Positions 7,022 to 30,953 of a DNA stretch of 64,000 nt are shown here, piece after piece. Below the pieces are notes generated by a model that was not told the origin of the DNA, ran no database searches, and worked only from the letters and a program-made list of their open reading frames with translations. The position numbers were made by a program, and so were the translations under genes. The DNA comes from Acidobacteria bacterium Ga0077534 (GTDB lineage Bacteria; Acidobacteriota; Blastocatellia; Pyrinomonadales; Pyrinomonadaceae): positions 1 through 64,000 of the forward strand of contig LNEI01000024.1 of assembly GCA_001464455.1 (NCBI GenBank), given 5' to 3'. Position 1 is the first letter of the stretch. Every line of letters begins with the position of its first letter.

Positions 7022-9220
7022 ATGCGTAGCGGGGACAACAACTTACGAAGGATCGGCGGGTTCGCCGTCGACTTAGATCGGCGAATATTGTGGGTTAACG
7101 AAGGACCCGCTGATCTACCCGTAAAGGCGGTCGAGTTGCTATGTGCTCTCGTGGAGCGGGAAGGCGAGGTTGTTTCAAAAGATGAGCTCCTCGAACGCGT
7201 TTGGCCCGGCACCTATGTTGAAGAAGGAGTTCTTTCGCAAAATGTTTACCTGCTGAGAAAGATCTTCAAGCAGCATGGTCTTCCAGACGATCTGATCCAG
7301 ACGGTGGCCCGTCGCGGTTATCGATTCATTGAGGGAGCTTCTGAACGACAGATGCCCGATATTACGATAGAGCGCGAGATCATCGAGCAAACATCGATAA
7401 CTGAGCGGGAATATGTTGAGGAACCTGAGATCGTCGGCAACGCCTGGCCGCAGCGGTCCCGAGTTGCATTTGCCGCCGTCGGCGTTGCGATCCTGATTGG
7501 AGCGGTCGGCCTTTATTTTGCTTTGATCACGAATGCGGGCCCTGCTGCCCCATCGGTTGCCGACCCGAACGTTCGTCTTTCGTATGAAAAGATCACCGCA
7601 TCGGGACGTGCGTTTTATGTCGGCCTCTCGCCGGACAATGAAAACGCGGCGTACGTACTGCATACAGCCGACAACAAGTACGCTCTCAGCCTCTACCACC
7701 TAGCTTCAAAGAGTGAGACAACCATCATTCAGCCGCAGGAAGAGCAGATACTCAACATTCAGTTCTCACCGGATGGAAACAGCATTTACTACGCCGGGCT
7801 TCAGGGAGACCTAAAAAAGAGTATCTACCGCATACCGATCTACGGCGGCACTCCACAGCTAATTACTCGTGAGTTAACCCACCATTACATGCTCTCACCC
7901 GATGGCGAATGGGTGGCATATTATCGGCGAGTTCCTGAAAATGAAGAGCATCACCTCGAGATCTGCAGGTCTCGCGACGGGAGTGAAAAGCGAACGATCA
8001 CGGTACGACGCGGTACAGAGGGATTTATCATCTGGGGAGCTGCCCCTGCGTGGTCGCCCGACGGAAAAAGGTTTGCAGCTGCCGCTTTTACCAAAAAAGA
8101 ACCAGGCGAACGCGGCCGGGTACACCTGGTCGAGATAGATATCTCTACGGGGGCACACAAAGACATCCCCGCACCGGATTGGCACGCTGCGCATCAACCT
8201 TACTGGGCCCCGAACGGCGAAGCCCTCTATGTCATGGTCCGTGAGGATCAGGGAGATCCGATGCAGCTTTGGTATCTTGACCACCGGACTGGGGCGGCCC
8301 GGAATATCACCAACGATGACAACGATTATCGCGAGTTTCGCGTCGCGTCCGACGGATCGTTCATCATGGCGTCGACGTGGACAAAATCAGAGAATCTTTT
8401 CCTTGTCCCGGTCGACGATCCGGACAGCGCGCGGCAGCTTACCTTTGACGATGATCGGCCGAACGGGGCAACCGCTCTCGCGTGGACCCGCGACGGGCGT
8501 TCGCTCGTTTTTTCGAAAGCGGAGGGCATCGGCCTCGGGAACTTATGGCGGATGGACATAGATTCTTTAGCTCAGCGGCAGCTTACTTTTGATAAAGGAG
8601 CATTCCCGCATTATGCCGATGTAACACCGGACGGTCGATCGGTCGTATTCGGTTACAACAAGACTGGTAAGTGGCACATCTGGCAGGTCGATCTTGACGG
8701 CGACGACCTTAAACAGATCACCAATGGAAATTACGAAGCCGCACCGGAGATCTCGCCGGATGGCAAGTGGCTATACTACCTCTCCGATGGCCTGCAAAAG
8801 CGTCCGATCGAAGGCGGCGAGCCGGTCAAGCTGATGGGCAAGGGCCCAGGGACGGTGCGTGTTTCGCCGGCAGACCCCTCTGTGTTTGCAGCTTATTTCA
8901 ACGACCGCAACGAAAAAGAAAAGAACCCCTGGAGATACGTGCTTTTTTCGGGACCTGACCTAAGTAAGTATCGGGATCTAAACATTCCCGCGACTGTTTT
9001 CTTCGAGTGGAAACCTGATGGCAGCGGCATCTATTACATAGATAATGGAGAGAGCTTCAGCAATATTTGGTTCGTCAACTCGGTCGACCTCAGCAGGTAT
9101 CAAATTACTAAGTTTACCGACCAGAAGATCGGAAACTTCAGCGTATCGCCAGACGGGAAAACATTCGCGATATCGAGGGGTTCGGCCATTGGCAACATAC
9201 TGAAGCTCGTGCCTAAGTAA
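7022..9220 (+). CDS. Membrane-anchored wHTH regulator with TolB/PD40 sensor domain
   Basis: 732-residue protein of a type abundant in Acidobacteriota. Residues about 8-103 form an OmpR/CadC-type winged helix (LPVKAVELLCALVEREGEVV, then SKDELLERVWPGTYVEEGVL, ending RRGYRFIE). One transmembrane helix lies at about 148-169. The rest (about 190-732) is extracytoplasmic and built of PD40/TolB-like beta-propeller repeats, recognisable by recurring LSPDGEWVAYY, FSPDGNSIYYAG and ISPDGKWLYYLS blades. By analogy with CadC it may sense a periplasmic signal and bind DNA directly. It is divergent from the fibre gene, with about 120 bases of promoter region between 6902 and 7021. No strong ribosome-binding site. 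Confidence 0.85.
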   Translation: MRSGDNNLRRIGGFAVDLDRRILWVNEGPADLPVKAVELLCALVEREGEVVSKDELLERVWPGTYVEEGVLSQNVYLLRKIFKQHGLPDDLIQTVARRGYRFIEGASERQMPDITIEREIIEQTSITEREYVEEPEIVGNAWPQRSRVAFAAVGVAILIGAVGLYFALITNAGPAAPSVADPNVRLSYEKITASGRAFYVGLSPDNENAAYVLHTADNKYALSLYHLASKSETTIIQPQEEQILNIQFSPDGNSIYYAGLQGDLKKSIYRIPIYGGTPQLITRELTHHYMLSPDGEWVAYYRRVPENEEHHLEICRSRDGSEKRTITVRRGTEGFIIWGAAPAWSPDGKRFAAAAFTKKEPGERGRVHLVEIDISTGAHKDIPAPDWHAAHQPYWAPNGEALYVMVREDQGDPMQLWYLDHRTGAARNITNDDNDYREFRVASDGSFIMASTWTKSENLFLVPVDDPDSARQLTFDDDRPNGATALAWTRDGRSLVFSKAEGIGLGNLWRMDIDSLAQRQLTFDKGAFPHYADVTPDGRSVVFGYNKTGKWHIWQVDLDGDDLKQITNGNYEAAPEISPDGKWLYYLSDGLQKRPIEGGEPVKLMGKGPGTVRVSPADPSVFAAYFNDRNEKEKNPWRYVLFSGPDLSKYRDLNIPATVFFEWKPDGSGIYYIDNGESFSNIWFVNSVDLSRYQITKFTDQKIGNFSVSPDGKTFAISRGSAIGNILKLVPK

Positions 9221-21466: not shown

Positions 21467-22777
21467 TTATCGGTGCTCGATTATCTGAGTGAAGGAACTG
21501 GACCGAATATCGCCTATCGAGAGTCCTGTTTGTTCGGAGGCTTCATCCTCCGAGATCGCTCCACAATCGACCGCCCGGCGGAAAAAGTTTAGCAGGCCCT
21601 GCCCAGTCGCGGCATCGTCAAAAGTATTTCCGACTAAATTCGCCCGAGCACCTTTTTCGATAAAAGACCGTAGTCGTTTGGATGCATCCGGCATCGATTC
21701 GAGAAAGAACGCGTAAACCGCTGCGTATCTCGCGACAAACTGTGCCGGGTGCAGATCCCAGCCGCGATAAAAACCCTTTGCAAGTCCGTGACGGATGTTG
21801 TCGTAATGCAGTTTCCACGCCGCTCTAACAGCCGCGATATTTTCGTTTATCTGACTATCCGAAATATCAGGCCCGCGATGCGGGGCAACAGGCATCAGAT
21901 TGGTTGCTCCGTCGGAAACGTCTACCGGACGTCCCGCAAGCGATAGTTTAATTAAATTGCGGGCGAGATCGCACGCCGAGTGACTTAGTCCCTGTTCAGA
22001 CGAAGCAATGCCGAGTTCCGAAAGGTAGTCGTACGCCCCAAAATGGGCCGCAACGCATCGTCCATCAGCCGCATCCACGATCCCTGGCAGAGCCATCGAA
22101 CCGTTCTTATCAAAGATCGCCCTGGCCGTCTCGACCATGATTTCGATGCCGATCGACCCTCGGTCTATCCCAAATCCATTCTCGATATCCGCTAGAGCCC
22201 TCGACAAGATCGATACCTCGCCCGGCGAATTTACCTTTGGCAATGTGATGACAAAGTTATGAGGCAATCGCCCATTCATCGAATCTATGAGGTGCGTCAA
22301 ATAGAGGTCCAGCGTTCTGAGAGCACGCTTTCCGGTCTCAACGCTAAGGGCCTTGATCCTGATGCCAAAATAGGGTGGAAGGGCATTACGCTTGATCGCG
22401 TCTGCGGTTTCAGCGGCGGTGCTGACCGCATGACCATCTTCTTCCTCGCCCGAACGAACGCCGTAGCCATCCTCAAAATCGATCCGAAGGTCTTCAACAG
22501 CCTCGACAGAAAGTTTTGTTTCGACGCGTTCCCTTACTGCAGCCGCAATGCCTTCCGGAATATCGAAGATGCTTCGGACGTCGTCTGCGTCGGGAGCGTA
22601 TGTGTGCAGGGCCTTGCGCGATAGCTCGGCCAGTTTGCTGTTCGTGTCCGCAGTGAAAAGCTGGGCACCGCCATAGACGGTGTGAACAGGCGACCGTCGA
22701 GTGACAGTCAGGTCAGCGCCTCGATAGAGAGCCGATTCTAGCTGTTCTAGGGCATCGGAGGAGATGGTAGTTTTCAT
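21467..22777 (-). CDS. DUF6986 HpcH/HpaI-like lyase-fold protein
   Basis: 436 residues, related to the HpcH/HpaI aldolase / citrate lyase beta / malate synthase fold. Visible parts are DLRIDFEDGYG (substrate/metal region), IGIEIMVETARAIFD with the likely metal Glu, AAHFGAYDYLSELGI with the likely metal Asp, and GWDLHPAQFVARYAAVYAFF. The DUF6986 family is commonly found beside ureide (uric acid breakdown) genes, as here with UraH- and UraD-like genes just upstream on the same strand, 7 bases away. Its reaction is not known. Confidence 0.75.
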   Translation of the reverse strand: MKTTISSDALEQLESALYRGADLTVTRRSPVHTVYGGAQLFTADTNSKLAELSRKALHTYAPDADDVRSIFDIPEGIAAAVRERVETKLSVEAVEDLRIDFEDGYGVRSGEEEDGHAVSTAAETADAIKRNALPPYFGIRIKALSVETGKRALRTLDLYLTHLIDSMNGRLPHNFVITLPKVNSPGEVSILSRALADIENGFGIDRGSIGIEIMVETARAIFDKNGSMALPGIVDAADGRCVAAHFGAYDYLSELGIASSEQGLSHSACDLARNLIKLSLAGRPVDVSDGATNLMPVAPHRGPDISDSQINENIAAVRAAWKLHYDNIRHGLAKGFYRGWDLHPAQFVARYAAVYAFFLESMPDASKRLRSFIEKGARANLVGNTFDDAATGQGLLNFFRRAVDCGAISEDEASEQTGLSIGDIRSSSFTQIIEHR

Positions 22778-22784
22778 TAACTTT

Positions 22785-23129
22785 TTATCGGCCGCGGAAG
22801 GTTGAATAGCTGTGCGGGCTAACTAGGACCGGAACATGATAATGCTGCTGGGCGTCCTTGACGGCGAAACTGACGGTGACCTGCGGATAGAAACACTCGA
22901 TACCCTGAAGCAGAAAATACGCCGCTGTCTCGAAAATGAAGCGATAATGTCCGGGAAGGAAAGCTTCGCGCGTTGACAGCAGGTCATTAAGCCGGCCATC
23001 GACATCCGTTACACCCTCGGCTACTGCCTGCCAGCCCGCGGTGTGGGTCTTTCTTTCAAGCACCACAGCAACGCCGGCAGCTGGTTTGCCTGACGCGGTG
23101 TCCAGGATCTGTGTCGTGATAGGACTCAT
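22785..23129 (-). CDS. 5-hydroxyisourate hydrolase-like protein (UraH family, altered active site)
   Basis: 114 residues of transthyretin-like fold, the length of HIU hydrolase. The C-terminal block HYHVPVLVSPHSYSTFRGR and FETAAYF fit the family. Two signature positions differ: the N-terminal motif normally read THVLDT is TQILDT, replacing the catalytic histidine with Gln, and the C-terminal YRGS tetrapeptide is FRGR. True HIU hydrolase activity is therefore uncertain. Its ATG overlaps the stop of the UraD-like gene (ATGA). No uricase gene is in the window. Confidence 0.8.
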   Translation of the reverse strand: MSPITTQILDTASGKPAAGVAVVLERKTHTAGWQAVAEGVTDVDGRLNDLLSTREAFLPGHYRFIFETAAYFLLQGIECFYPQVTVSFAVKDAQQHYHVPVLVSPHSYSTFRGR

Positions 23130-23593
23130 TTCTCCAGAAGCTTGCTCAATCGGCTCTCGATCATTTTGCGGTGTTCGTCAGCTGCGATCTGCAATTCCGT
23201 CGCTACCGAGTTGCCCAAACGAGCTTTGCACACCGCTAACACCTCGTCGGGACTTTTTCCTTCGTCGCTGAGTACGAATATAAACCCGAACTTATCTCTG
23301 TACAAGCCCTTTATATCCTCGATCGCCATTTCCGAGTTGCCGTTCGAAGAGGTACCATTCGTTTTTGCTTCGCCCGCACATGAAAATGCTGCTATCCGTT
23401 CCGCCGCCGGCAGCGAAAACCATAAACTCTCTGCCGTCTGGAACAATTGCTCGACGAGCGGAAAAGGCCTCGATCGTGCAAGTTCTCGTGCCCAAAGCTC
23501 CGACCCGCTCACGGAGAGGAATAGTTCCTCCGCCCGATCGGCAGGTAATTCGTTCAGCCAAGCCAGATTTCTGTAAATGTTAAAGCTTTTCAA
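23126..23593 (-). CDS. OHCU decarboxylase-like protein (UraD family, HPRIG motif lost)
   Basis: About 155 helical residues of the UraD fold: LNELPADRAEELF, SGSELWARELARSRPFP, YRDKFGFIFVLSDEGKS and RLGNSVATELQIAADEH all match family positions. The active-site HPRIG motif, carrying the catalytic histidine, is replaced: AAFSCAGEAKTNG stands where AFAAHPRIG is expected. The enzyme may be inactive or do something else. Start: the frame is open to 23707, but a promoter-like TTGTCT-17-TATAAC lies inside that stretch and family starts sit near LNELP, so TTG 23593 is chosen tentatively. Co-translated with the UraH-like gene. Confidence 0.75.
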   Translation of the reverse strand: MKSFNIYRNLAWLNELPADRAEELFLSVSGSELWARELARSRPFPLVEQLFQTAESLWFSLPAAERIAAFSCAGEAKTNGTSSNGNSEMAIEDIKGLYRDKFGFIFVLSDEGKSPDEVLAVCKARLGNSVATELQIAADEHRKMIESRLSKLLEK

Positions 23594-23603
23594 CGGCGTA
23601 ATC

Positions 23604-23632
23604 GTTATAACACACCACGGAAACCAAGACAA
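23604..23632 (-). promoter_or_regulatory. Candidate promoter of the uraD-uraH-DUF6986 operon
   Basis: On the minus strand, TTGTCT (23627-23632) and TATAAC (23604-23609) are separated by 17 bases, about 10 bases before the TTG chosen as the uraD start. It lies in the gap to the divergent PhyH gene and supports the short form of the UraD-like protein. Confidence 0.5.
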
Positions 23633-23706
23633 TTTCGGAGCCTTGAACGCCCCCGCTTTGTCGTTTCCGAGGGCGTGAAACATAATACTCTTAAAGTCCT
23701 GCAACA

Positions 23707-24489
23707 ATGTTTTTAATGACCGATCAGCAGCGAAAACAATTTGACGCCGACGGACACCTGCTGCTTCGGGAGGTCATCGAGGCAGACGAAATTGCCGTTC
23801 ACCGGCGAGCGATCACAGAGGCGAGCCGAAGGCTGATTACAGAAGATCGCCCGCTCGCCGAGCGGGATACCTACGGCAAAGCGTTTCTCCAGACGATGAA
23901 CCTTTGGCTGCATGATGACGCGGTAAAGACATTTGTCTTTGAAAGGAAATTTGCAGACATCGCGGCTGCTCTGCTTGGTGTCGAAAAGGTTCGGCTCTAT
24001 CATGATCAAGCTCTCTTCAAGGAGCCCGGCGGCGGGCCGACGCCCTGGCATCAGGATCAATACTATTGGCCGCTCGACACCGACCGAACGATAACGATGT
24101 GGATGCCTCTGGTTGATATTGATGTGGGAATGGGAATGCTCACCTTCGCTGCCGGCTCACATCGCGGCGGCGTGGTTGACGATCTCGCGATCTCGGACGA
24201 AAGCGATCAGATCCTCGCGAAATACGTGAAAGATAATAGCTTTCCGGTAGCGCGTGCCGAATCAATGAAAGCGGGCGATGCGACGTTTCATCTCGGTACT
24301 ACGATACACACGGCGGGCGAGAATCGCTCGAATAGGCTTCGCGAGGTGATGACCGTTATTTATTTTGCGGACGGAGCACGCGTGACCGAGCCGCGAAACG
24401 AACACCAGCTGGCAGACCTCGAAACGTGGCTGACGCCGCGAAACCCCGGCGAGCTCGCGGACGGGCCGCTGAATCCGATCCTGCAATGA
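23707..24489 (+). CDS. PhyH-type Fe(II)/2-oxoglutarate dioxygenase
   Basis: 260 residues of the phytanoyl-CoA dioxygenase family. The iron site reads WHQDQYYW (His115, Asp117) with the distal histidine in HLGTTIHTAGENRS; FKEPGGGPTPWHQD and GSHRGG are also typical. It probably hydroxylates a small molecule using 2-oxoglutarate and O2; the substrate is unknown. It is divergent from the UraD-like gene, which makes a purine or ureide substrate thinkable but unproven. ATG 23716 is an alternative start. Its stop overlaps the malQ start (ATGA). Confidence 0.85.
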   Translation: MFLMTDQQRKQFDADGHLLLREVIEADEIAVHRRAITEASRRLITEDRPLAERDTYGKAFLQTMNLWLHDDAVKTFVFERKFADIAAALLGVEKVRLYHDQALFKEPGGGPTPWHQDQYYWPLDTDRTITMWMPLVDIDVGMGMLTFAAGSHRGGVVDDLAISDESDQILAKYVKDNSFPVARAESMKAGDATFHLGTTIHTAGENRSNRLREVMTVIYFADGARVTEPRNEHQLADLETWLTPRNPGELADGPLNPILQ

Positions 24490-26009
24490 TTATGGCAAAT
24501 CGCGAGAGATCATCGGGACTTATCCTGCATCCGACATCGCTGCCAGGGCGTTTCGGTGTCGGCAATCTTGGCCCGGCGGCCTTCGAGTTTGTCGATTTTC
24601 TCTCGTTGGCGGGCCAAAAGCGGTGGCAAATACTCCCGCTCTGCCCGCCCGGTGAAGGCAACTCGCCTTACTCAGCATACTCGGCCTTCGCCGGAAACCC
24701 GATCCTGATCTCGCCTGAAAAGCTCGTCGACGATGGCTTACTTGCAGCAGAGGACTTAGCCGACGTACCCGAATTTTCGACTGAATTTGTCGAGTTTGAC
24801 CGCGTCACAAAGTGGAAAAGCGAGATGCTCGCAAAAGCGTTCGAGGCTTTTCGAGCAGGTGCGGCACCGCAATTGACGGACGAGTTCGAGTACTTCTGCA
24901 AGAACAACGCTTGGTGGCTCGACGATTATTCGCTTTTTCGCGCACTCAAATCCTCACATTCAGAAAAGGCTTGGTTTCAGTGGGCTGAGCCGCTGCGTTC
25001 GCGTGAACCTGCGGCCATTGCGACTGTACTATCGCAACTCGCACGCGAGATCCAGACCGAAAAATTTTCGCAGTATCTCTTTTTCCGGCAATGGTTTGCG
25101 GTTCGACGATATGCGAATGAACGGGGCATCAAGATCGTCGGCGACCTGCCGATCTTTGTCGCGCTTGATTCGGCTGATGTGTGGTGTAATCAGCGTAGTT
25201 TCAAGCTTAAGCCCGACGGCTCGCCAACCGTGGTCGCGGGTGTGCCGCCGGATTACTTCTCAAAGACCGGCCAGCTCTGGGGCAACCCGATCTACAACTG
25301 GGAAGCGATGCTGAAGGACGATTTTGGCTGGTGGACGGCCCGTTTAGCGTTCAATTACGAGATCGTAGATATCGTTCGGCTCGATCATTTCATCGGATTT
25401 ATCCGCAACTGGGAAGTTCCCGGTGGTGACGAGACTGCTGAAAATGGCAAATGGTCTCCGGTTCCCGGCCAAATGCTGTTTCGAACGCTGCTCAGGCGGC
25501 TCGGGCCGTTTCGCGTGATCGCCGAGGACCTCGGGGCGATGACGGCGGAAGTCGAGGCTCTTCGTGACGACTTTGGCTTTCCCGGGATGCGGATCCTGCA
25601 GTTTGCCTTCGGCGGTGATGAGGCTAATTCCAATTTGCCGCACAATTACATTCCAAACTCGGTCGTCTACACCGGAACGCACGATAATGACACAACGGCC
25701 GGCTGGTGGCGTTCAATTTCGGGTAAGAAGAAGGGCTGGGAGGCGAAAACTCGCAAACACTGTCTCGAATATCTGCAAACCAACGGTCGCGAGATGCATT
25801 GGGAAATGATCCGTGCAGCATGGGCATCGGTCGCTGAGACTGCGATCGTGCCCCTGCAGGACGTGTTTGGCCTCGACAACAAACACCGAATGAATCTACC
25901 CGCCTCGACCGACGGCAACTGGAAATGGCGGCTCGCCGATGGAGCACTGACGCCCGAAATAGCTGATAGACTTAGGCAATTGACTGAACTGTATGGCCGT
26001 TTGGCTTAG
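24486..26009 (+). CDS. malQ: 4-alpha-glucanotransferase (amylomaltase) MalQ
   Basis: 507-residue cytoplasmic GH77 enzyme that transfers glucan chains between maltodextrins. Motifs visible are GLILHPTSLPGRFGVGNLG at the N-terminus, KIVGDLPIFVALDSADVW, the nucleophile region IVRLDHFIGF, the acid/base in VIAEDLGAMT and TGTHDNDTTAGW. Length matches the family. ATG 24486 overlaps the PhyH stop, suggesting co-translation; ATG 24492 is possible. No other glycogen gene is adjacent. Confidence 0.95.
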   Translation: MIMANRERSSGLILHPTSLPGRFGVGNLGPAAFEFVDFLSLAGQKRWQILPLCPPGEGNSPYSAYSAFAGNPILISPEKLVDDGLLAAEDLADVPEFSTEFVEFDRVTKWKSEMLAKAFEAFRAGAAPQLTDEFEYFCKNNAWWLDDYSLFRALKSSHSEKAWFQWAEPLRSREPAAIATVLSQLAREIQTEKFSQYLFFRQWFAVRRYANERGIKIVGDLPIFVALDSADVWCNQRSFKLKPDGSPTVVAGVPPDYFSKTGQLWGNPIYNWEAMLKDDFGWWTARLAFNYEIVDIVRLDHFIGFIRNWEVPGGDETAENGKWSPVPGQMLFRTLLRRLGPFRVIAEDLGAMTAEVEALRDDFGFPGMRILQFAFGGDEANSNLPHNYIPNSVVYTGTHDNDTTAGWWRSISGKKKGWEAKTRKHCLEYLQTNGREMHWEMIRAAWASVAETAIVPLQDVFGLDNKHRMNLPASTDGNWKWRLADGALTPEIADRLRQLTELYGRLA

Positions 26010-27983: not shown

Positions 27984-28790
27984 ATGGCATCTAATCTGGT
28001 TTCGATACAGCGACGTGGCTTTGGACAGACGATGCGGAAGGACACTTGGTGGGTCGCACCGCTTCTGACCTTTATCGGGCTTGGCTCATTCGTCCTCTAT
28101 TCGACGTGGGCAGCGTTTCAGGGTGCTCATTATTGGGTTCCGGGCACAGGTTATCTTTCACCGTTCTATTCGCCCGAGCTTTTCGGAAATTCGCCGCACG
28201 CCCTATTTGGACCGCAGCCTTCGTGGATACCGTCTTGGCTGCCGTTTTCGCCTGCTTTGCTGATCCTCTGGGCTCCCGGCGGCTTTCGGTTCACCTGCTA
28301 TTACTATCGCGGAGCCTACTACAAAGCAATGTGGGCCGACCCGATCGCCTGCGCCGTCGGCGAACCGCGAAAGGGCTATCGCGGGGAGAATTGGTTCCCG
28401 CTGATCCTACAGAACATTCATCGCTATTTTCTATATCTCGCAATATTTTTCCTGTTCTTCCTCGCCTATGACGCGTGGAGTGCAATGTGGTTCCAGGCTG
28501 CTGACGGGACGTGGAGATTCGGAGTAGGCGTCGGAACGCTGGTACTAACGGCAAACGTCTTCTGCCTCGGATTCTATACCTTAAGCTGCCACAGTCTCCG
28601 CCATCTAGTTGGCGGCGTTTACGACGTATTGTCGAATAAACCGATCCGAAAGAAAGCGTATGGATGTGTAAGTTCTCTGAATAAACGGCACATGCTGTTT
28701 GCCTGGATCTCGCTCTTTGTAGTCGGTTTTAGCGACATCTATGTGCGGCTTGTTTCAATGGGAATTTGGACCGACTACCGAATCATTTGA
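27984..28790 (+). CDS. Probable succinate dehydrogenase membrane anchor (non-classical)
   Basis: 268-residue membrane protein with about five helices (near 22-44, 88-106, 143-165, 180-203 and 236-258). It is not the usual 120-residue SdhC/SdhD pair, but resembles the single larger anchor found before sdhAB in some bacteria: CYYYRGAYYKAMWADPIACAVG, YRGENWFPLILQNIHRYF and SCHSLRHLVGG. Histidines in QNIHRYF, SCHSLRH and NKRHMLF are candidate heme ligands. Context decides: SdhA and SdhB follow on the same strand. Its stop overlaps the start of the amber-interrupted frame at 28790. Confidence 0.7.
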   Translation: MASNLVSIQRRGFGQTMRKDTWWVAPLLTFIGLGSFVLYSTWAAFQGAHYWVPGTGYLSPFYSPELFGNSPHALFGPQPSWIPSWLPFSPALLILWAPGGFRFTCYYYRGAYYKAMWADPIACAVGEPRKGYRGENWFPLILQNIHRYFLYLAIFFLFFLAYDAWSAMWFQAADGTWRFGVGVGTLVLTANVFCLGFYTLSCHSLRHLVGGVYDVLSNKPIRKKAYGCVSSLNKRHMLFAWISLFVVGFSDIYVRLVSMGIWTDYRII

Positions 28791-29134: not shown

Positions 29135-29141
29135 TTTATTG

Positions 29142-30953
29142 ATGACTGATTATCCAACATTTGAACACGACGTTATCGTCATCGGTGCCGGTGGTGCTGG
29201 GCTTCGGGCGGCTATTGAGGCTTCGGGCTCGGGCGTGAGCGTCGGGCTGATATGTAAGTCTTTGCTCGGCAAGGCTCACACTGTCATGGCCGAGGGCGGG
29301 ATGGCGGCGGCGATGGGACATAATGACGATCGCGACAACTGGAAGGTTCACTTCTCCGATACTATGCGCGGCGGCCAGTATGTGAATAACTGGCGCATGG
29401 CAGAGCTGCACGCCAAGGAGGCTCCGGATCGCGTCCGCGAACTCGAAAGCTGGGGAGCGGTTTTCGACCGTACGCCCGACGGCCGCATCAATCAACGAAA
29501 CTTCGGCGGGCATCGATATCCAAGGCTCGCGCATGTCGGCGACCGTACTGGATTAGAACTCATCCGCACGCTTCAGGATCACGGCATCCATCAGGGCATC
29601 GAGGTTTACATGGAGGTCACGGTGCTTTCGCTGCTGAAAGACGGCGACCGCGTGGTCGGATGTCTCGCGTACGAACGTGAACACGGGCGTTTCCGCATTT
29701 ATAAATGTAAGGCGTTGATCCTCGCGACCGGCGGCATTGGAAGGGCGTACAAGATCACTTCGAATAGCTGGGAAGGAACGGGCGACGGCCATGCACTTGC
29801 GTACGACGCGGGAGCCGAGCTGATCGATATGGAATTTATCCAGTTCCATCCGACGGGCATGGTCTGGCCGCCATCGGTTCGCGGAATTCTCGTCACCGAA
29901 GGCGTTCGCGGCGAAGGCGGCATTCTGAAGAACAGCGAAGGCAAGCGGTTCATGTTCGACGACATCCCGGACAATTACAAAGATCAGACCTCAGACACCG
30001 AGGAAGAAGGTTGGCGTTACGTCACCGGAGATAAAAACGCCCGCCGCCCGCCCGAACTCCTGACCCGCGACCACGTCGCCCGCTGTATCATGCGAGAGGT
30101 CAAGGCAGGACGCGGTTCGCCGCATGGTGGAGTCTATCTCGACATCGCCTGGATCAAGGAAAAGATCCAAAACGCACCGGAGCACATTAAGAAAAAGCTG
30201 CCGTCGATGTATCACCAGTTCATGCAGCTCGCGAATCTTGATATCACAACCACACCGATGGAAGTCGGGCCGACGACGCATTATGTGATGGGCGGAATTC
30301 GCGTAAATGCAGACACGCAGGAATCGAGTGTGCCGGGATTGTTTGCAGCGGGTGAATGCGCGGCAGGGATCAATGGAGCGAATCGCCTCGGCGGAAATTC
30401 ACTCTCCGATCTGATCGTGTTCGGAAAACGGGCCGGCGAACACGCCGCCATATTTGCAAAGGAAAACGGCCACGGCACTATCAACAACGATCAGATCGCC
30501 AAAGCCGCGAAAGCCGCTCTCGAACCGTTCGAACGCGACGGCGGCGAAAATCCGTACACGATCCAGCACGATCTGCAGGAAATGATGCAGGCAAACGTTG
30601 GTATCGTCCGGATGCAGGATGAAATGATCGAGGCCCTCAACGGGCTGGACATACTGCGAAATCGAGCCGCACGAACGTTCGTCCCGGGCAACATCGATTT
30701 CAACCCCGGCTGGCACACGGCCCTCGACCTGCACAACCTGCTTATCGTCAGCGAAGCGATAACCCGCTCCGCAATCGAACGCCAGGAAAGCCGCGGCGGC
30801 CACTTCCGCGAAGACTTCCCGGACAAAGATCCGGCGTTTTCGAAGTTTAATTTCGCGGTCAAGAAAACTGACACGGGAGCAATGGCGATCTCGAAGCTAC
30901 CGATCCCGGAAATGCCGGATTATTTGAAAGAAGTGATAGCCGAGATGGGGTAA
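29142..30953 (+). CDS. sdhA: Succinate dehydrogenase/fumarate reductase flavoprotein subunit
   Basis: 603-residue FAD subunit that oxidises succinate to fumarate. FAD-binding VIGAGGAGLRAAIEA lies at the N-terminus, with the FAD-linking histidine region KAHTVMAEGGMAAA. The active site has QFHPTGMVWPPSVRGILVTE and THYVMGGI, and the second FAD contact is LFAAGECAAGINGANRLGGN. ATG 29142 lies 7 bases after the interrupted ORF; no strong ribosome-binding site, so coupling is likely. SdhB follows after a gap filled by a large palindrome. Confidence 0.93.
   Translation: MTDYPTFEHDVIVIGAGGAGLRAAIEASGSGVSVGLICKSLLGKAHTVMAEGGMAAAMGHNDDRDNWKVHFSDTMRGGQYVNNWRMAELHAKEAPDRVRELESWGAVFDRTPDGRINQRNFGGHRYPRLAHVGDRTGLELIRTLQDHGIHQGIEVYMEVTVLSLLKDGDRVVGCLAYEREHGRFRIYKCKALILATGGIGRAYKITSNSWEGTGDGHALAYDAGAELIDMEFIQFHPTGMVWPPSVRGILVTEGVRGEGGILKNSEGKRFMFDDIPDNYKDQTSDTEEEGWRYVTGDKNARRPPELLTRDHVARCIMREVKAGRGSPHGGVYLDIAWIKEKIQNAPEHIKKKLPSMYHQFMQLANLDITTTPMEVGPTTHYVMGGIRVNADTQESSVPGLFAAGECAAGINGANRLGGNSLSDLIVFGKRAGEHAAIFAKENGHGTINNDQIAKAAKAALEPFERDGGENPYTIQHDLQEMMQANVGIVRMQDEMIEALNGLDILRNRAARTFVPGNIDFNPGWHTALDLHNLLIVSEAITRSAIERQESRGGHFREDFPDKDPAFSKFNFAVKKTDTGAMAISKLPIPEMPDYLKEVIAEMG

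Follow-up and report, generated by a model that had tools for sequence, protein, structure and literature searches.

A UraD subdomain that probably took on a non-enzymatic role and outlived the urate pathway in OLB17-like Pyrinomonadaceae

The uraD-uraH-DUF6986 operon

The 64,000-nucleotide stretch considered here (contig LNEI01000024.1, positions 1 to 64,000, assembly GCA_001464455.1; hereafter the window) belongs to Acidobacteria bacterium Ga0077534, a member of the Pyrinomonadaceae whose genome (G000) is 97.9% complete. Its minus strand carries, from 23593 to 21467, a three-gene operon encoding homologues of the 2-oxo-4-hydroxy-4-carboxy-5-ureidoimidazoline (OHCU) decarboxylase UraD and of the 5-hydroxyisourate (HIU) hydrolase UraH, followed by a DUF6986 protein; a PhyH-type dioxygenase and a 4-alpha-glucanotransferase (GH77) are encoded on the opposite strand. 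The catalytic centres of both homologues are altered, and the fate of UraD in this bacterium and its relatives is the main subject of this report. The features of the operon are as follows.

23126..23593, minus strand: UraD homologue, very probably dead, 155 amino acids, TTG start (PF09349, AlphaFold2 model, Foldseek, lost motif columns)
23342..23389, minus strand: residues 69-84 of this UraD, AFSCAGEAKTNG replacing the family AF..HPxIG (alignment, model)
22785..23129, minus strand: altered UraH, HIU hydrolase/transthyretin fold, 114 amino acids (PF00576, TIGR02962, alignment, substitution counts)
21467..22777, minus strand: DUF6986 protein with a barrel like those of HpcH/HpaI aldolase and malate synthase, last of the three operon genes (PF22484, 490.7 bits; tree)

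The TTG at 23593 was picked as the uraD start from comparison with relatives; the mechanical open reading frame extends to 23707. The uraD and uraH genes overlap by 4 bases (ATGA), and 7 bases separate uraH from the DUF6986 gene on the same strand, which bears out the coupling and the shared operon proposed in a preliminary description made from the letters of this stretch. The frames and motifs quoted there are also correct, namely AFSCAGEAKTNG at the AF..HPxIG position of UraD, and TQILDT and FRGR in UraH. Its remark that the window lacks a uricase holds across the whole genome for two families, PF01014 and the PuuD-type PF06181 (no match to either; other oxidase types were not searched). 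Allantoicase (PF03561) is likewise without a match in the genome. A search of the genome for a second, canonical uraD/uraH pair finds none, and the idea that the present genes are degenerate copies beside such a pair is ruled out by the presence of a single UraD and a single UraH.

The two altered enzymes

The window UraD passes the Pfam OHCU_decarbox model PF09349 (68.9 bits, cut-off 24), and it scores less than the curated thresholds of all three NCBIfam models for UraD that it matches (105.5 vs 124, 79.2 vs 139.4, and 25.9 vs 96.25 bits). Six residues, H71, P72, W90, S91, E94 and Q95, are invariant in ten of ten intact-centre UraDs, three of them of the same genus and the remaining seven of other genera, and are aligned with gaps in the window protein. 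H71 of the HPxIG motif is presumably the catalytic histidine, and we take the acidic residue of WSxxEQ to be catalytic as well; as the columns of both motifs are gapped, the loss goes beyond the histidine. The protein retains N12, W32, R40, P41, the FGFIF core and the C-terminal arginine (R166 in the numbering of relative G025), also presumed to be catalytic, which is an arginine in the window genome and its sister species G034, and a glycine in relative G008. The AlphaFold2 model has a predicted local distance difference test score (pLDDT) of 88.9 and a predicted template modelling score (pTM) of 0.82, residues 79-83 being the sole stretch with a pLDDT <50, and Foldseek retrieves UraD structures with it (2q37, TMt 0.84; 3o7h, TMq 0.82; 3o7i, E 1.1e-7). 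The window UraD is very probably no longer an OHCU decarboxylase.

The altered UraH exceeds the cut-offs of both TIGR02962 (130 vs 87.45 bits) and PF00576 (127.5 vs 25.3 bits). Its changes are H7Q, Y111F and S114R, while Arg46 and His98 are retained; of the two catalytic histidines, H7 alone is therefore gone. The claim that both homologues have lost their histidines thus stands for UraD, where more than the histidine is missing, and for H7 of UraH, but not for His98. The equivalences of His98 with His92 of the HIU hydrolase kpHIUH, counted back from YRGS, and of R46 with Arg41 are inferred matches of numbering. According to PMC8272043, the kpHIUH site comprises His7, Arg41, His92 and Tyr105 together with the C-terminal tetrapeptide, His92 being indispensable; catalysis is strongly impaired once the tetrapeptide is deleted, and the S108A mutation has a very small effect on activity. 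Since S108A barely lowers kpHIUH activity, the serine-to-arginine change taken by itself is weak evidence, and the three changes together provide a stronger indication of an altered site.

Altered UraHs also occur in G034 and in two further relatives, G008 and G007. All four retain R46 and H98, and none has an intact YRGS terminus (FRGR in the window); the first histidine is a glutamine in the window alone and is retained in the other three. The altered motifs do not form one conserved set: G034 has THVLDI and FRGK, and G008 and G007 differ again. Over the four proteins, 10 of 24 cells at our own list of six sites are changed, vs 16 of 112 other invariant cells (p 0.004); with the sites listed in PMC8272043, the counts are 9 of 28 vs 17 of 108 (p 0.049). 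A new ligand or a weak hydrolase activity is possible for the altered UraH, and in the window's species the coupled UraH may serve to bind some purine-like ligand or to convert it slowly.

Selection on the altered genes

Both genes are maintained by selection and are not decaying. Between the window genome and G034, uraH differs at 65 of 84 synonymous sites and at 39 of 255 non-synonymous sites (Fisher p 2e-25; proportions of differing synonymous and non-synonymous sites, pS and pN, of 0.78 and 0.15). The corresponding counts for uraD are 84 of 105 and 110 of 349 (p 2e-19; pS 0.80, pN 0.32). The altered uraH genes of G008 and G007 exhibit the same substitution pattern as that of the window. 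With open frames and a pS well above pN in this species pair, the two genes do not behave as pseudogenes. The preliminary view that the set was redirected and not decayed is upheld by the selection on both proteins, and by a genome in which neither a second canonical pair nor a uricase of the two families is matched; its other half, a switch of substrate, has little likelihood in the case of UraD, whose core 13 relatives lack.

A graded series in the genus

The genus, for which we coin the label OLB17-like Pyrinomonadaceae, is represented by 41 genomes, of which 8 have UraH, 3 uricase PF01014, 3 allantoicase and 28 DUF6986; PuuD-type PF06181 is found in none of the 41. A tree of RplK, RplA, RplJ, RplL, RpoB and RpoC (3614 columns, 28 rows) was built from the 21 UraD-holding genomes and eight other genomes of the genus, G006 being dropped because it has no rpoB match. 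It exhibits a clade of 20 genomes (support 100/100), all of which hold a UraD sequence; seven module-free genomes and G018 branch outside. Within the clade, UraD is found in four states: intact in two genomes, early intermediate in one, with a dead centre in four, and as a mini-UraD in 13. Uricase and allantoicase are matched there only in the two intact genomes, G025 and G015.

The gene order follows these states. G025, G015 and, outside the clade, G018 display allB-alc-uraD-uraH-uricase-DUF6986. In G024, uraD-uraH is followed by a uricase stub of 41 residues and a DUF6986 stub; its UraD is the early intermediate, with the histidine present and WSxxEQ changed, and this genome is marked canonical in the trees despite that state. 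G000, G034 and G007 share the order uraD-uraH-DUF6986 with uraD and uraH altered, and G008 has altered uraD and uraH alone. The mini-UraD precedes DUF6986 in G004, G027, G032, G030 and G061, adjoins an LD-carboxypeptidase gene in G003, G013, G017, G021, G022, G002 and G026, and has neither neighbour in G033. A closer look at G024 (locus L028, 404-1662) places a pair of short genes, which resemble HicB/HicA as judged only by eye, between the C-terminal uricase stub and a 5' stub of DUF6986; to judge from this arrangement, it is a freshly broken urate cluster in which uraD and uraH are still open. At the G008 locus (L019, 8258-8681), about 420 bases lie between uraD and uraH, vs the 4-base overlap of the window and G025.

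Four flanking anchors, namely GH77, an SdhC-like/SdhA pair, a glycogen debranching enzyme and NamZ, recur at 14 of the 20 clade loci (G000, G034, G007, G008, G025, G004, G027, G032, G003, G013, G017, G021, G022 and G002). The backbone within the clade is unresolved, and G008, with its dead centre, is the sister of the intact G025 (100/99). A single origin of the non-canonical state, with minis and altered genomes held together, is rejected (p 0.0006 in the approximately unbiased, AU, test). Loss of catalysis at least twice is thus supported, though not proved, by the tree, unless intact clusters were reacquired.

The mini-UraD family

The minis of the 13 genomes are 75-86 residues long (start counted) and consist of the first helices of UraD, a short linker and the last helix, the catalytic core being absent. 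Their C-terminus is LER in 12 of 13 and LERR in G022; the G021 mini has GTT where the others align their start, so that its own start is uncertain. At E 0.01, 21 of the 41 genus genomes match a profile built from the first eight minis. Ten named records matched by the mini profile include Acidobacteria bacterium OLB17 and Pyrinomonadaceae metagenome-assembled genomes. A weak match in G014 (E 0.005, in a 303-residue frame) is taken as chance and left uncounted; G024, found by the Pfam family, is missed by the profile, as its contig begins within the gene and so lacks the N-terminus. In a class-wide search 69 of 162 genomes are matched, with minis only within this genus: outside it, the frames listed are of at least 141 residues with one exception, a 99-residue frame at a contig start.

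The minis are under purifying constraint. In each of six chosen pairs, pS (0.26-0.77) exceeds pN (0.06-0.33; Fisher p 1.4e-4 to 1.3e-21), and the ratio of non-synonymous to synonymous substitution rates (dN/dS) is 0.08-0.44 among the mini pairs listed for which it was computable. On three minis, the Pfam model (cut-off 24) is passed at 33.3 and 26.8 bits and failed at 19.3. The AlphaFold2 model from a 13-row alignment comprises five helices (pLDDT 92.7, pTM 0.81). Superposed on Klebsiella UraD with VIA-align, it aligns over 69 of 74 residues, which extend from residue 1 to 165 of the UraD chain, with a root-mean-square deviation of 1.9 and a Z score of 11.4; as a Z under about 13 may be unspecific for helical bundles, the identity of the minis as UraD rests on sequence. 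From the model, excision of the core appears to leave a closed subdomain. No known mechanism would allow the minis to act as OHCU decarboxylases. Chance remnants of open reading frames were considered and are ruled out by the substitution pattern and the model.

Helix 1 begins with IY in all 13 minis and in both intact enzymes of the clade, those of G025 and G015; IY is absent from G018 and from the nine UraDs of other genera that were read. This shared feature fits a second role acquired before the pathway was lost.

About 25 bases ahead of the mini, six genomes (that of L022, at 7456-7560, and those of five relatives) have an invariant GTGTATAAT, which suggests a promoter of its own and a short leader; a consensus promoter scan upstream of the minis called no promoter. 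In seven genomes (L022, L029, L031-L033, L093 and L094), the mini lies directly upstream of the LD-carboxypeptidase (peptidase S66) gene, and in six of these seven NamZ, an exo-beta-N-acetylmuramidase, is close by, a possible peptidoglycan-recycling neighbourhood.

DUF6986 and the flanking genes

Downstream of its UraD and UraH, the window encodes a full-length DUF6986 protein (490.7 bits, positions 17-407 of the 408 of profile PF22484). The tree separates two DUF6986 subfamilies in the genus. The second (L069, L071, L073-L085, L088 and L090; 17 genomes) is found in genomes without the UraD module, and many of its members start with MSKTxLxDGDEGV. Eight of the altered or mini genomes encode DUF6986, and its terminal branches in all of them measure 0.25-0.94, vs 0.11-0.16 in the three intact clusters. 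The family also matches five plasmid records; on the three examined, all actinobacterial, it is flanked by guaD/xdh on one side and allantoicase on the other, or adjoins an NCS1 transporter gene or urease genes. In view of these neighbours, DUF6986 is probably a ureide-pathway protein. Solved structures provide one weak match only (3qqw, E 0.005), and no paper naming DUF6986 was found in the one collection searched.

Three further features flank the operon.

23707..24489, plus strand: PhyH-type dioxygenase, divergent neighbour judged to lie outside the set (PF05721, 95.1 bits; genus distribution)
24486..26009, plus strand: 4-alpha-glucanotransferase (GH77), syntenic anchor outside the set (PF02446, 585 bits; synteny)
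27984..28790, plus strand: membrane protein upstream of an SdhA-like gene (29139-30953), syntenic anchor common to relatives (no Pfam match)

The last of these, a conserved protein preceding the SdhA-like gene, is possibly a divergent succinate dehydrogenase anchor. PhyH does lie opposite the operon with its HxD site present (HQD), as had been described. The proposal of a conserved DUF6986/PhyH set fails on its distribution: PhyH orthologues (55-70% identity) occur in nine genus genomes besides the window's (10 of 41 in all) and adjoin the module in two of the ten. The arrangement of the window is common to G034 alone, G030 and G033 have PhyH and mini on separate contigs, and six genomes have PhyH and no UraD module. 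A functional partnership is rejected on this distribution, and PhyH is, as its occurrence across the genus indicates, a neighbour and not a member of the set.

Origin of the remnant and competing explanations

These observations are probably best explained by the N-terminal subdomain of UraD having gained a non-enzymatic function and having been maintained as urate breakdown disappeared; the window would show an intermediate. The N-terminal helical subdomain would have taken a second, non-enzymatic role in the ancestor of the clade, most likely the binding of another protein or of a small ligand. With the loss of the urate pathway, the catalytic centre of UraD would have been degraded or excised in frame, whereas the unit made of helices 1-4 and shut by the C-terminal helix would have remained under purifying selection. 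The window operon would then represent an intermediate state with a dead UraD that keeps its C-terminal helices, a UraH with a drifted active site and a full-length DUF6986, and in the 13 relatives UraD would have been reduced to the mini of 75-86 residues. Because these relatives have the N-terminal module without the catalytic core, we infer that the retained role is non-enzymatic. This role is presumably older than the loss of the pathway. A fuller proposition is that excision of the core in frame gave rise to a new small-protein family; that its helices had taken on an indispensable, non-enzymatic role ahead of pathway loss, so that UraD sequence persists in all 20 genomes of the sampled clade while uricase, UraH and DUF6986 disappeared around it; and that catalysis was lost at least twice. 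In our view this proposition is slightly favoured. A narrow literature search, one part of which was mostly off topic, found nothing on truncated or non-catalytic UraD.

The preliminary description favoured a new catabolic set, in which UraD, UraH and DUF6986 would act on another ureide or purine-like substrate. The coupled operon, the Arg46 and His98 kept by UraH, and a full-length DUF6986, with its plasmid neighbours xdh/guaD/allantoicase, NCS1 transporter or urease, all speak for it. We nonetheless regard it as unlikely: UraD has neither the histidine nor the acidic stretch, its core is missing from the 13 relatives, UraH and then DUF6986 are gone from relatives that retain the mini, and PhyH is not linked. 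A new substrate for UraD itself is unlikely on the same alignments. Slow decay, with relic genes awaiting deletion after the loss of uricase, would account for the disappearance of uricase and allantoicase from most of the clade, for UraH site changes that vary among species, for the longer DUF6986 end branches outside intact clusters and for the poorly constrained uraD of G007. It is hard to reconcile with open frames, with saturated synonymous sites and lower pN in G000/G034, G008 and G007, and with minis whose pS exceeds pN in the six pairs and which retain both ends of the protein; we judge it improbable. A residual canonical function, whereby UraH hydrolyses HIU from an unidentified oxidase and UraD is a mere scaffold, appears more improbable still. 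The nearly wild-type activity of S108A in PMC8272043, the retained His98 and Arg46, and the plant protein in which UraD and UraH are fused (PMC2834698) are compatible with it, but the genome has no uricase of the two families and no allantoicase, H7 and Tyr111 are changed, and site cells changed more often than other invariant cells in both counts.

Several points weigh against a retained non-enzymatic subdomain. The uraD of G007 is less constrained (pS 0.87, pN 0.46 against G000), and synonymous sites are saturated in most pairs, which makes the ratios rough and puts exact values out of reach. With the mini model, Foldseek returns no match at E <=0.001, UraD structures ranking first (best 5uou, E 0.02, probability 1.00). 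The shared IY may also be explained by plain common descent. Mini neighbours vary (DUF6986, the LD-carboxypeptidase LdcA, or none), so that the neighbourhood does not name the role of the minis, and the function proposed for them and for the window UraD is a prediction from sequences and models. A shared locus is shown for 14 of the 20 genomes, the stretches read in G015, G024, G026, G030, G061 and G033 carrying none of the four anchors. Retention in 20 of 20 genomes is conditional on sampling, 13 of the 41 genus genomes lying outside the tree: ten of these have the outside type of DUF6986, and G005, G023 and G062 (78-85% complete) are unplaced. Minis held together are not rejected (p-AU 0.11), so that the minis may have had one origin or several, and an intact cluster reacquired in G025 or G015 would mimic repeated loss. 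Finally, the DUF6986 of G018 groups closest to those of G025 and G015, contrary to the species tree; transfer of this cluster, or misbinning of its small contig (L027, 6455 bases), is possible.

Relation to known systems

The window UraD and the minis resemble the OHCU decarboxylases (PF09349; PDB 3o7h/3o7i, 2o70, 2q37) in fold, in N- and C-terminal helices and in the order uraD-uraH, but the former is devoid of the HPxIG histidine and WSxxEQ and the latter of the whole core. UraH likewise matches 5-hydroxyisourate hydrolases/transthyretin-related proteins over its full length above cut-off, with Arg46 and His98, and departs from them by H7Q, Y111F and S114R. Vertebrate transthyretin, described in PMC2834698 as a relative of HIU hydrolase turned hormone carrier, offers a parallel: once recruited to another role, this scaffold lost catalytic residues, among them its first histidine and the YRGS at its C-terminus. 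The present UraH is bacterial, and only some of its sites are changed. Reptilian CRUOX (PMC10517255) is a uricolytic gene that was repurposed and retained after urate degradation was lost. It keeps a weak uricase activity, whereas the UraD centre is lost here and the core deleted in relatives. As for the plant protein that fuses UraD with UraH, its initial description was that of a BRI1 interactor (PMC2834698).

Implications

The window UraH passes the equivalog cut-off of TIGR02962 with an altered site, which carries a risk of misannotation; a uraD/uraH annotation alone is therefore no proof of urate catabolism. The genus offers a graded natural series: a complete urate operon, then a dead enzyme, then a remnant some 75 residues long, with a subdomain that would have outlasted the enzyme it came from. 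This series makes possible non-enzymatic jobs of the UraD and UraH folds directly testable.

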